From positions 62,001 through 126,000 of the forward strand of contig NZ_JACICA010000006.1 of the NCBI RefSeq assembly GCF_014195585.1: a stretch of 64,000 bases of DNA. Direction: 5' to 3'. The stretch is from Alloprevotella rava. GTDB lineage: Bacteria; Bacteroidota; Bacteroidia; Bacteroidales; Bacteroidaceae. The notes below the pieces were generated by a model. It did no database searches. It saw nothing but the letters and a program-made list of their open reading frames with translations, and was not told the origin of the DNA. Position 1 is the stretch's first letter; each line of letters begins with the position of its first letter. Of this stretch, positions 47,500 to 50,467 are shown piece after piece. A program made the position numbers and the translations under genes.

Positions 47500-48642
47500 A
47501 TGATATTCCTTTACAATTTCTTAGCCTTTTTTTTCAGTGCAGCCATGGCTACGCTGATGATTCGAGAAATTCTCCGCATAGCATACAAGAGAAAACTCTT
47601 TGACCTTATTGATGGACGAAAAGTCCATACGGTGCAAGTGCCACGCTTAGGGGGAGTTGCCTTTACTCCTAGCATCATCATGAGCATCTCGCTCTTGAGC
47701 GTCATTGCCTCCATGTTTGGCATCTCACCATTCTTTGTTGTCGATGGGCGCACCGTAGCCTATTGTCTCTTTGCCACACTGCTCATCTACAGCGAAGGGA
47801 TGGCCGACGATCTTCTCGGACTAAGATACCAAGTGAAGTTCTTGTTCCAATTCATCTGCGCCATCGTTCTGGTGCTCTCTCGAACCTATTTCACATCGCT
47901 CCACGGACTATTGGGTATCTACGAGATACCGCCAGCCATTGGCTACCCCCTGGCGGTGGTTTTCATCGTGGGCATCATCAACGCGATGAACCTTATCGAT
48001 GGTATTGATGGTCTAGCATCAGGTCTGAGTATGATAGCTCTCACTTTCTTTGGTATCTTCGCCACATGCTATGGTTATGCTGCTTTCAGTATCACAGCTT
48101 TTGCCACACTCGGCGTAGTTGTTCCGTTTTTCTATTATAACGTCTTCGGACGTGCCGAGACGGAGCACAAGATTTTCATGGGCGACTGTGGCAGCCAAAC
48201 CATCGGTCTGATTCTTGGTATGCTGTCCGTGCGTTTCTGTATGCTAGGTCACGCTCAAGAGGTGCTCCACTTGCCCAATACGCTTATCGTGGTGTTCAGC
48301 CTCCTCCTCGTTCCGTGTTTCGACGTTATCCGTGTGATGGTAGGACGTATGCGCCACGGCAAAAGTCCTTTCCACCCCGACAAGACACATATTCATCATA
48401 AGTTCTTAGCCCTCGGTTTCACGCACCGCCGCACCATGGTGACGATTCTCCTTATCGCCATGGGCTATGTCATCTTGACGCTCTCGCTAAGCCGCATCCT
48501 CAACATCAACATCGTTGTTCTAATCGACGTTCTTGTATGGACAGCCATGCACTTCTACTTGAACCGACGAATGGGGCCTCCCCCCCCTTACCCCTCTCCA
48601 AAAGGAGAGGGGAGTGAATACTCCTGTAGAAGACAATGTTAG
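47500..48642 (+). CDS. WecA-like polyprenyl-phosphate N-acetylhexosamine-1-phosphate transferase
   Basis: This polytopic enzyme of the MraY/WecA family starts glycan assembly on undecaprenyl phosphate. The 380-residue product has about eleven membrane segments. Motifs are RKVHTVQVPRLGGVAF near the N-terminus, MADDLLGLRYQVKFLFQF, the catalytic-site NLIDGIDGLASGLS, FMGDCGSQTIGL and the late HPDKTHIHHKFLALG histidine motif. The last ~28 residues (GPPPPYPSPKGEGSEYS and onward) are encoded by an inserted repeat (48575-48621), so the original C-terminus has been replaced. With wecB and wecC downstream it fits a GlcNAc/ManNAcA-containing glycan. It is the second initiating transferase in the window. 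Confidence 0.92.
   Translation: MIFLYNFLAFFFSAAMATLMIREILRIAYKRKLFDLIDGRKVHTVQVPRLGGVAFTPSIIMSISLLSVIASMFGISPFFVVDGRTVAYCLFATLLIYSEGMADDLLGLRYQVKFLFQFICAIVLVLSRTYFTSLHGLLGIYEIPPAIGYPLAVVFIVGIINAMNLIDGIDGLASGLSMIALTFFGIFATCYGYAAFSITAFATLGVVVPFFYYNVFGRAETEHKIFMGDCGSQTIGLILGMLSVRFCMLGHAQEVLHLPNTLIVVFSLLLVPCFDVIRVMVGRMRHGKSPFHPDKTHIHHKFLALGFTHRRTMVTILLIAMGYVILTLSLSRILNINIVVLIDVLVWTAMHFYLNRRMGPPPPYPSPKGEGSEYSCRRQC
48575..48621 (+). repeat. Inverted terminal repeat, left copy
   Basis: The sequence runs GGCCTC, eight C in all, TTACCCCTCTCCAAAAGGAG, then AGGGGAGTGAATAC. It encodes the terminal residues of the WecA-like protein. Confidence 0.8.
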
Positions 48643-48721
48643 GGGAAACTGGACTGCTTAGACTCTTGTGGATGAGAGTGGAAGACAATATTGGATTGAC
48701 GGATTACTAAGACTATGAGAT

Positions 48722-49096
48722 ATGTACGACTATGAAACGGCAAATCCGAACAAGTATGGGCTACTAAAAGAATTTGCGCGCAAGAACCGCGCAGGGATGA
48801 CGCCGTGCGAGAAAGCGCTGTGGGAAAAACTCAGAAAGCTGTCATGTGGCATAAAGTTTCGCCGACAACACCCCATAGCCGACTATATTGCCGACTTCAT
48901 CTGCCTGGAAAGAAAACTCATTATTGAAGTGGACGGAAAATACCACGAAAGCCCCGAACAAAAGGCTCATGATGAAATAAGAACCCACGATCTCGAAGCC
49001 TACGGATACACCATCCTTCGGTTCACAAACGAAGATGTTACCTATAACCTACAAACAGTCATCAACAATATAAAAGACTACGTTTTATACAAATAA
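48722..49096 (+). CDS. DUF559 endonuclease-like protein
   Basis: The 124-residue product belongs to the DUF559 family, which has a restriction-endonuclease-like fold related to very-short-patch-repair nucleases. Visible features are KNRAGMTPCEKALWEKLR, GIKFRRQHPIADYIADFICL, LIIEVDGKYHE (the E-V-D-G core of the predicted active site) and a closing YTILRFTNEDV. The length is the usual one for the family. It lies between inverted repeats and interrupts an otherwise polysaccharide-related gene row, so it is probably a passenger rather than a pathway gene. The biochemical role of most DUF559 proteins is not known. Confidence 0.88.
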   Translation: MYDYETANPNKYGLLKEFARKNRAGMTPCEKALWEKLRKLSCGIKFRRQHPIADYIADFICLERKLIIEVDGKYHESPEQKAHDEIRTHDLEAYGYTILRFTNEDVTYNLQTVINNIKDYVLYK

Positions 49097-49103
49097 AACA
49101 ACC

Positions 49104-49157
49104 ACTAACAAGCACATAAAAACAGACACACCCAACAAAAATACACACTCCCCTCTC
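49104..49157 (+). repeat. Direct repeat, copy 1
   Basis: About 54 bp containing AAAACAGACACACCCAACAA and ending in CACTCCCCTCTC. It is repeated with a few changes 107 bp downstream (49211-49264). It includes a partial third copy of the inverted terminal repeat. Confidence 0.75.
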
Positions 49158-49204
49158 TACGGGGCGTAGTTACCATCACCTAAACACAGTTGCAACAATA
49201 TAAA

Positions 49205-50467
49205 ATGCCCACCAACAAACACATAACAAAAGACACACCCAACAAAAGTATACACTCCCCTCTCCCGTTGGAGAGGGGTAAGGGGGTGAGGCTCACGTTC
49301 CTCCTCATCACCATCCTCTTCTTCATGTGGGGTTTTGCCCACAGTATGCTGGATGTACTCAACAAGCACTTTCAAGTGTCGCTCAATATCTCCATGACCC
49401 AGGCAGCACTCGTACAAAACGCCGTGTATGGAGGATATTTCCTGATGGCCATTCCAGCAGGAAAAATCATCAGCAGATTCGGGTATAGAGCCGGCGTCCT
49501 CACGGGGCTCGTACTCTTCTCCCTTGGAGCACTACTCTTTGTACCCAGTAGCTTACTGAACAATCCGCTCCTCACGTTCTATTTCTTCGTCTTCTCCCTC
49601 TTCGTCATCGGCTGCGGCCTTACCTGCCTCGAGACATCGGCTAATCCGTACGCCACAGTATTGGGCGATAAAGAAGGAGCAGAGCGACGCATCAATTTCG
49701 CCCAATCGTTCAACGGCTTAGGGTGGATTCTCGGTCCGCTGATTGGCCTATTCCTCTTCCGCGAAGGGGCAGAAAACAACGACGTTGTCATCCCCTATGC
49801 CGTCATCGGTGTGATAGTCCTCATCATGGCAACAGTATTCAGTAGAGTCCCCCTACCAGAAGTAGGAACAGAGAACGACGCCACGGAAGAAGACCCCCAG
49901 AAAGTTCGCTCCCTCTGGCAACACCGTAATTTTAAGTTCGGCATCCTCGTTTTGATGCTCTATGTGGCCGCACAAACGGGAGTCAACAGTTTCTTTATCA
50001 ACTACACCACCGATCCCGCTGTAGGAATCTCCACCACCACGGCCACCCTGCTCCTTGCCTTCGGCTGCATGGGTCTCTTCATGGTGGGCCGCCTCTGCGG
50101 TAGTTGGCTCATGAGTCGCATCCGCGCCGAACGTATCTTGACCTTCTGCGCCTTAGGTGCCACCCTCGCCACGTTCGTCATCCTGCTCACGGGCGGCATG
50201 ATAGGCACAGTTGCTCTCTTCTTTGTCTATTTATTTGAGAGCATCATGTTCCCCACCATCTTCGCCCTCTCTATCCGCGGATTGGGCAGTAAGCAGACAA
50301 AGCAAGCCAGCAGCTATCTCATCATGAGCATCGTAGGCGGTGCAGTAGCCCCCACTATCATGGCCTTCATCGGCGAGCATTCCGGTCTGGCTCAAGCTTT
50401 CATCGTCCCCCTCATCTGCTACATCGCCATCCTGCTGTATGGTATGAAATATAAAACACTGAAATAA
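49205..50467 (+). CDS. FucP-type major facilitator superfamily sugar transporter
   Basis: This is an inner-membrane proton-coupled sugar porter. The product is 420 residues from the ATG at 49205. It has 12 membrane segments, beginning LTFLLITILFFMWGFAHSML, which is the FucP/GluP N-terminal helix. It also has YGGYFLMAIPAGKIISRFGY, CLETSANPYATVLGD and AQSFNGLGWILGPLIG, all FucP/GluP-family motifs. The first ~27 residues (HSPLPLERGKG) are encoded by the right inverted repeat of the DUF559 unit, so the native start was probably lost. A GTG at 49286 is an alternative start. It lies 13 bp before the LicC-PLP fusion and may import a precursor for that pathway, by analogy with LicB. Confidence 0.9.
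   Translation: MPTNKHITKDTPNKSIHSPLPLERGKGVRLTFLLITILFFMWGFAHSMLDVLNKHFQVSLNISMTQAALVQNAVYGGYFLMAIPAGKIISRFGYRAGVLTGLVLFSLGALLFVPSSLLNNPLLTFYFFVFSLFVIGCGLTCLETSANPYATVLGDKEGAERRINFAQSFNGLGWILGPLIGLFLFREGAENNDVVIPYAVIGVIVLIMATVFSRVPLPEVGTENDATEEDPQKVRSLWQHRNFKFGILVLMLYVAAQTGVNSFFINYTTDPAVGISTTTATLLLAFGCMGLFMVGRLCGSWLMSRIRAERILTFCALGATLATFVILLTGGMIGTVALFFVYLFESIMFPTIFALSIRGLGSKQTKQASSYLIMSIVGGAVAPTIMAFIGEHSGLAQAFIVPLICYIAILLYGMKYKTLK
49211..49264 (+). repeat. Direct repeat, copy 2
   Basis: This is the second copy of the 49104-49157 repeat. It lies at the 5' end of the FucP-type coding sequence and runs into the right inverted repeat. Confidence 0.75.
49248..49294 (-). repeat. Inverted terminal repeat, right copy
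   Basis: This is the inverted counterpart of 48575-48621. It contains CACTCCCCTCTCCCGTTGGA, then GAGGGGTAAGGGGGTGAGGC. It lies within the first codons of the FucP-type gene. Confidence 0.8.

Follow-up and report, generated by a model that had tools for sequence, protein, structure and literature searches.

In the window, the 64,000-nucleotide stretch of Alloprevotella rava DNA analysed here, a DUF559 gene lies between the genes for a WecA-like glycosyltransferase and a FucP-type transporter, and the locus raises the question of whether this gene is mobile and, if so, by what means. A sequence-only reading had proposed that inverted copies of a palindrome-containing sequence bound the gene, that the two copies now encode parts of the neighbouring proteins, and that a small endonuclease gene moving with such repeats would be a transposase-free mobile unit. 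We regard the segment as probably (at roughly 0.7) one member of a class of mobile units that lack a transposase, are driven by a homing-endonuclease-like enzyme of the Vsr fold, and survive in genes by means of translatable ends and body.

The palindrome-bounded DUF559 unit of the earlier reading is real, as confirmed by flank alignment, palindrome counts and a DUF559 profile match. It occupies 717 bp (48576-49292), with the gene intact between near-identical inverted ends of ~46 bp each (Table 1). From 48576 the left end reads GCCTC-CCCCCCCTTACCCCTCTCCAAAAGGAGAGGGGAGTGAATACT; the right end, reverse-complemented, reads GCCTCACCCCCTTACCCCTCTCCAACGGGAGAGGGGAGTGTATACT and finishes at 49292. Each end carries a GC-rich 22-bp palindrome, CCCCTCTCC-N4-GGAGAGGGG. 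When the flanks are aligned with each other the local alignment score is 67, a value that 1000 random placements in the window never reached. The window has four occurrences of the motif CCCCTCTCC where 0.16 would be expected, all of them within the unit, and the palindrome CCCTCTCC-N0-10-GGAGAGGG has two matches in the 2.56-Mb genome, both in the unit (controls 0), so that the whole-genome pattern search found no further copy elsewhere. A BLASTN comparison of the unit with plasmids gave 0 matches. A feature absent from the earlier reading is that the right subterminal 65 bp are present twice as a direct repeat, and an inner half-palindrome at 49150 is broken after CCCCTCTC. The repeat (49093-49264) and the broken half-palindrome look like what remains of a former end or a nested event.

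Table 1. Features of the DUF559 unit and its neighbouring genes (window coordinates).
Feature	Position	Strand	Remarks
WecA-like glycosyltransferase (PF00953)	47500..48642	+	residues 359-380 encoded by the unit
Left inverted end	48576..48627	+	palindrome 48591-48612; translated as WecA tail
DUF559 gene, 124 aa	48722..49096	+	predicted PD-(D/E)XK/Vsr-fold nuclease with all invariant residues: D58, E69, D71, G72, H75, D84
Partial inner duplicate of right subterminal segment	49093..49157	+	second copy 49200-49264, 86% identical
FucP-type MFS transporter (PF07690)	49205..50467	+	start ATG 49205, or GTG 49286 at the unit's extreme end; native N-terminus missing
Right inverted end	49242..49292	-	palindrome 49257-49278; translated as the transporter's first residues

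The two neighbouring genes have been rewritten as proposed. With codon 359 the WecA frame enters the left end (GPPPPYPSPKGEGSEYSCRRQC), and it stops at 48642, the last 22 residues being unit-encoded. The same tail without the unit, which would have counted against the proposal, was not found among congeneric WecA proteins (0 of 28 readable tails). On the other side, nearly all congeneric FucP orthologues that were read begin with a leader like M..(K)T.DGRNYL.PF, ending DG(R/K)(N/D)(Y/F)...F.L.T.LFF.WGFAHS. The window protein starts with ..SPLPLERGKGVRLTFLLITILFFMWGFAHS instead of this conserved leader, which is missing, and its first residues therefore derive from the right end. In one congener (G031, locus L074), the linker LPLPRVRGEAVGR, possibly an element relic, joins the WecA-like protein in frame to the glycosyltransferase that follows.

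The 124-residue protein belongs clearly to DUF559 (PF04480), with an E-value of 2e-33 and 115 bits against a curated cut-off of 20.6, and its gene is the single full DUF559 gene of the genome. Residues D58, E69, D71 and H75 are invariant across 17 sequences. The structure model (pLDDT 87) lies nearest to the DUF559 structure 3hrl and next to the homing endonuclease I-Bth0305I (3r3p), the latter with a Foldseek probability of 1.00 and a TM-score of 0.76 on the target. By fold and catalytic residues, the protein is thus a predicted PD-(D/E)XK/Vsr-fold nuclease, and on its structural matches we favor break-and-copy homing. The frame of the nuclease is unfused to either neighbouring gene, this copy being situated at gene ends. 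The nuclease clusters with that of congener G018 (support 100/86); the unit there is bounded by ends of the same kind and adjoins the start of an ORF identified by eye as electron-transfer-flavoprotein-like. To our knowledge, no mobilization activity has been described for any DUF559 protein. The DUF559/YcjD/MTES_1575 family is described merely as predicted PD-(D/E)XK nucleases (PF04480; PMC1189080; PDB 3hrl), YcjD having been treated in 2005 as a Vsr-related member of that group (PMC1189080).

The ends of the window unit have counterparts across the phylum. DUF559 genes are present in 221 of 395 Bacteroidota genomes sampled, and 116 genes with sufficient flank were used in a test of ends, in which shifted windows at the same loci and the ends of other units served as controls. 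The inverted flank match exceeded the 95th percentile of the shifted controls in 78/116 units (Mann-Whitney p 4e-32), and a unit's own flanks matched within the top 5% relative to the ends of other units in 59/116. The palindrome sequence differs among units and is common to both ends of any one unit, and end similarity co-varies with nuclease similarity (Mantel rho 0.34, 0 of 999 permutations). For about one third of the genes, inverted ends were undetectable at the sensitivity used; some of these are surely settled genes. A single nuclease clade has units at different sites. Congener G032 holds five related units at five sites (L043, L047, L048, L049, L050) with strongly matching ends, and would make a good transposition system.

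A search by end repeats, as the sequence-only reading had suggested, recovers DUF559 without using it as input. The outer-end pattern GCCTCACCCCC-NNN-CCCTCTCC was found in 36 of 301 genomes of the family, with 0 control matches among the genomes listed. Among the inverted GCCTCACCCCC...GGGGGTGAGGC pairs that were fetched, both long ones (518 bp and 667 bp) enclose a DUF559 gene. These finds, together with the phylum-wide cognate ends, support the idea of a transposase-free mobile unit. They also weigh on a simpler account, in which an ordinary nuclease gene happens to stand between GC-rich palindromes that are terminators or common repeats. GC-rich hairpins are able to end transcripts and DUF559 is common in the phylum, but the repeat is found nowhere else in the window genome, the flanks are inverted and cognate, and the same ends occur in the middle of coding sequence. 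Such a coincidence is extremely improbable; terminators and chance were rejected on the genome-unique palindrome, the 78/116 cognate ends, and the DUF559 genes in units located by ends alone.

The remaining inverted pairs that were fetched are non-autonomous copies of 88-216 bp; overall, copies from which the DUF559 gene is absent span 88-224 bp. The earlier reading would have been undermined by a repeat equally common without DUF559, and this expectation is answered in two ways: short copies do exist, reaching ~80 counts in one family genome, as is usual for transposons, whereas within the genus palindrome-bearing genomes are enriched in DUF559 (6/8 vs 8/50, p 0.0016). Several of the compared genomes are draft assemblies; in the draft genome G024, short copies are present and DUF559 was not found. 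The window's ends also bound short copies in frame within a radical-SAM protein, an AraC-type regulator, and a glycosyltransferase-like protein, where the copy sits inside a hypervariable loop that holds a different such insert in another species. Others are in frame in ORFs that look AroE-like and TolC-type by eye. At L395:1632-1770, a short unit lies at the exact center of a perfect flank palindrome (CCCCACAACTG/CAGTTGTGGGG). Insertion into the centers of pre-existing palindromes was considered on this striking case, yet it holds for 2/29 overall and is unconvincing. At L382:1630-1845, an older copy's outer ends enclose a short unit, as though an excision scar had received a new insertion.

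The abundance of such DUF559-less copies suits an explanation in which some other enzyme mobilizes the palindromic ends, either a transposase (REP-type or IS-type) or a host factor, while the nuclease is cargo or a host-serving, Vsr-like repair enzyme. A repair role has indeed been proposed for VsrA, a Caulobacter DUF559 protein argued to act in mismatch repair (PMC12907096), and E. coli ycjD appears fixed in place. Against a passenger role, nuclease and ends co-diverge, the long units located by their ends carried DUF559, and the window genome has one full unit and no palindrome copies elsewhere. The nuclease is unlikely to be a mere passenger. Mobility of the unit is well supported, and we infer from the co-divergence of ends and enzyme that the enzyme itself may be the mover.

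Many DUF559 matches in the phylum sample fall within open frames of 300-1480 aa. Reading of the frames together with Pfam identifies the hosts as RecG, LeuS (at two sites), MetH, IleS, ValS, HsdR, HsdM, a DegT aminotransferase, a sugar epimerase, an AAA helicase, methylmalonyl-CoA mutase, and Eco57I-type and UvrD-type proteins; further units are found at the gene ends of TruB, HisF, and HemF. Each in-frame insert consists of DUF559 plus ~20-45 aa of end-encoded linker between parts of the host protein, the left end translating as P.PSP.GEG-like and the right as LPSGE.LGGA-like sequence. MetH and LeuS have been occupied independently and repeatedly, and the RecG nucleases form one clade. It might be supposed that splicing of RNA or protein, or ribosomal bypassing, eliminates these inserts after transcription, in the manner of introns, inteins, or byp elements. 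The GC-rich inverted ends could base-pair in RNA, and the hosts are conserved genes, as intein hosts are. However, a splicing (Hint) domain is absent in every host scanned with Pfam, which detects DUF559 alone in the insert, and the frame has long remained open throughout the unit and both its ends, including at loci whose ends have degenerated (L144, L147). Removal is very unlikely, and the preferred reading is that the units persist as translated parts of their hosts.

RecG offers a view of gain and loss. Among the RecG proteins of 59 relatives of Tenacibaculum discolor, 12 contain the unit and more than 40 lack it, those without it usually having 34 aa between the same motifs. A close relative, with a RecG 97% identical, retains AAGCCCATCGCATGCAGGGGCT, both outer ends with the middle gone, and the RecG of another retains the right end alone, in frame. 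The embedded nuclease is under purifying selection (dN/dS ~0.1). In three sets of close relatives, all for RecG, synonymous divergence is lower in the unit than in its RecG flanks: 0.20 vs 0.51 (p 1.7e-6), 0.03 vs 0.30 (p 1.4e-7), and 0.06 vs 0.23 (p 9e-4). Four RecG pairs have nominally higher divergence in the unit (p 0.004-0.007), and over all RecG pairs the medians are equal (0.64 vs 0.65), so the low values do not reflect a general constraint on the unit. They are the pattern expected had the unit been copied between species into the same RecG site while the rest of the gene was left. The structure model of RecG with its insert has a mean pLDDT of 41 and is unusable.

Presence or absence at fixed sites of conserved genes and the fold itself are shared with the EDxHD/Vsr-fold homing endonucleases (I-Bth0305I, PDB 3r3p), and the low synonymous divergence in the three RecG sets may be a signature of unit-only transfer as well. 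By definition, the endonuclease gene of a homing element either resides in an intron or intein that splices itself or stands free between genes. DUF559 units, in contrast, are without intron or intein, the lack of a Hint domain in the scanned hosts also setting them apart from inteins, and embedded copies stay in the host ORF with the nuclease translated as part of the host protein. The window copy is intergenic in position, yet it rewrites both neighbouring genes. Palindromic inverted ends, many ectopic sites, and short non-autonomous copies are further differences from homing endonucleases. In these respects the units resemble REPtrons, in which one enzyme gene (TnpAREP/RAYT) lies between cognate inverted REP palindromes with solo copies elsewhere (PMC8266576, PMC3733652). 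The window unit has such flanking palindromes, but its enzyme is a PD-(D/E)XK protein of DUF559 rather than the HUH Y1 enzyme TnpAREP; DUF559-unit outer ends are (A/G)GCC...GGC(T/C) rather than GTAG-tagged, and the units occur in frame inside genes. In operation the DUF559 unit would resemble a homing endonuclease element, and in construction it resembles a REPtron, while falling under neither definition. Nor does it conform to a DDE/IS-type transposon: the window unit contains no transposase, and flank matches among 69 units with approximate borders equalled the shuffled control, giving no detectable target-site duplication, which speaks against a DDE transposase. The short copies in radical-SAM, glycosyltransferase-like, AraC-type, and AroE-like ORFs are like Rickettsia palindromic elements in being short palindromic units in frame within unrelated genes, a likeness of layout. 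The Rickettsia elements are ~150 bp with an encoded nuclease undescribed (PMC10969869), whereas the DUF559 class has an autonomous version with a nuclease.

In the proposed mechanism, an autonomous unit would consist of a left end (A/G)GCC(C/T)...palindrome, a right end palindrome...(G/A)GGC(T/C), and one DUF559 nuclease gene of Vsr/I-Bth0305I fold between them; the shorter ends-only units are presumably mobilized in trans. The nuclease would recognize its own cognate palindromic ends, cut the target, or both. The chemistry would be cut-and-repair: repair of the break would insert a copy of the unit, homing-style at a site already used and more rarely at a new one. Ectopic insertion would be occasional and guided by the palindromic ends, leaving no target duplication and perhaps losing some flanking DNA, with which the truncated gene ends in the window are consistent. 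Since ends and body are readable in one frame or more (..LTPxPSPxGEG.. and ..LPSGE.LGGA..), surface loops and gene ends could retain insertions as added in-frame protein with splicing unnecessary. The window unit would have landed between the end of wecA and the start of fucP, and it now supplies 22 C-terminal and several N-terminal residues.

With somewhat less confidence than for the window segment, we favor a wider claim: that Vsr-fold nuclease units with cognate palindromic ends form a new class of selfish DNA, present across the phylum and probably beyond it, that homes and transposes without a transposase and persists in essential genes in the form of in-frame domains, translated and not spliced out, while its short derivatives keep adding peptides to bacterial proteins. 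The class is widespread and apparently undescribed, the DUF559 literature searched, with subscription journals outside its scope, describing no mobile unit with ends. The proposal supplies a functional hypothesis for a common family without an assigned role, covering E. coli ycjD and N. gonorrhoeae NGO0050, and would account for unusual insertions, and tails at gene ends, in many proteins of Bacteroidota. It makes testable the idea of mobile DNA residing in essential genes without splicing. We know of no mover of in-frame palindromic elements, those of Rickettsia included, and the DUF559 nuclease is a candidate mobilizer for them.

Outside Bacteroidota, DUF559 genes of Deinococcus, Pseudanabaena, and Sphingomonas plasmids (L292, L293, L294) have long, elaborate inverted repeats, which suggests that the class extends beyond the phylum. 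A DUF559 gene of N. gonorrhoeae (L289:2780-3560) is flanked by two palindromic repeat copies that are direct rather than inverted. E. coli ycjD (L298:1590-1943; L290:3300-3560) lies between sapF and fabI, with CCCTCTCC-type palindromes downstream and its 3' end partly duplicated. It is present in most fully matching genomes and was rejected as an empty-site system, genomes without the contiguous region carrying an efflux operon there. The gene has been reported to occupy the position that the eef efflux operon has in other E. coli (PMC12817139), which may parallel the loss of flanking sequence in the window.
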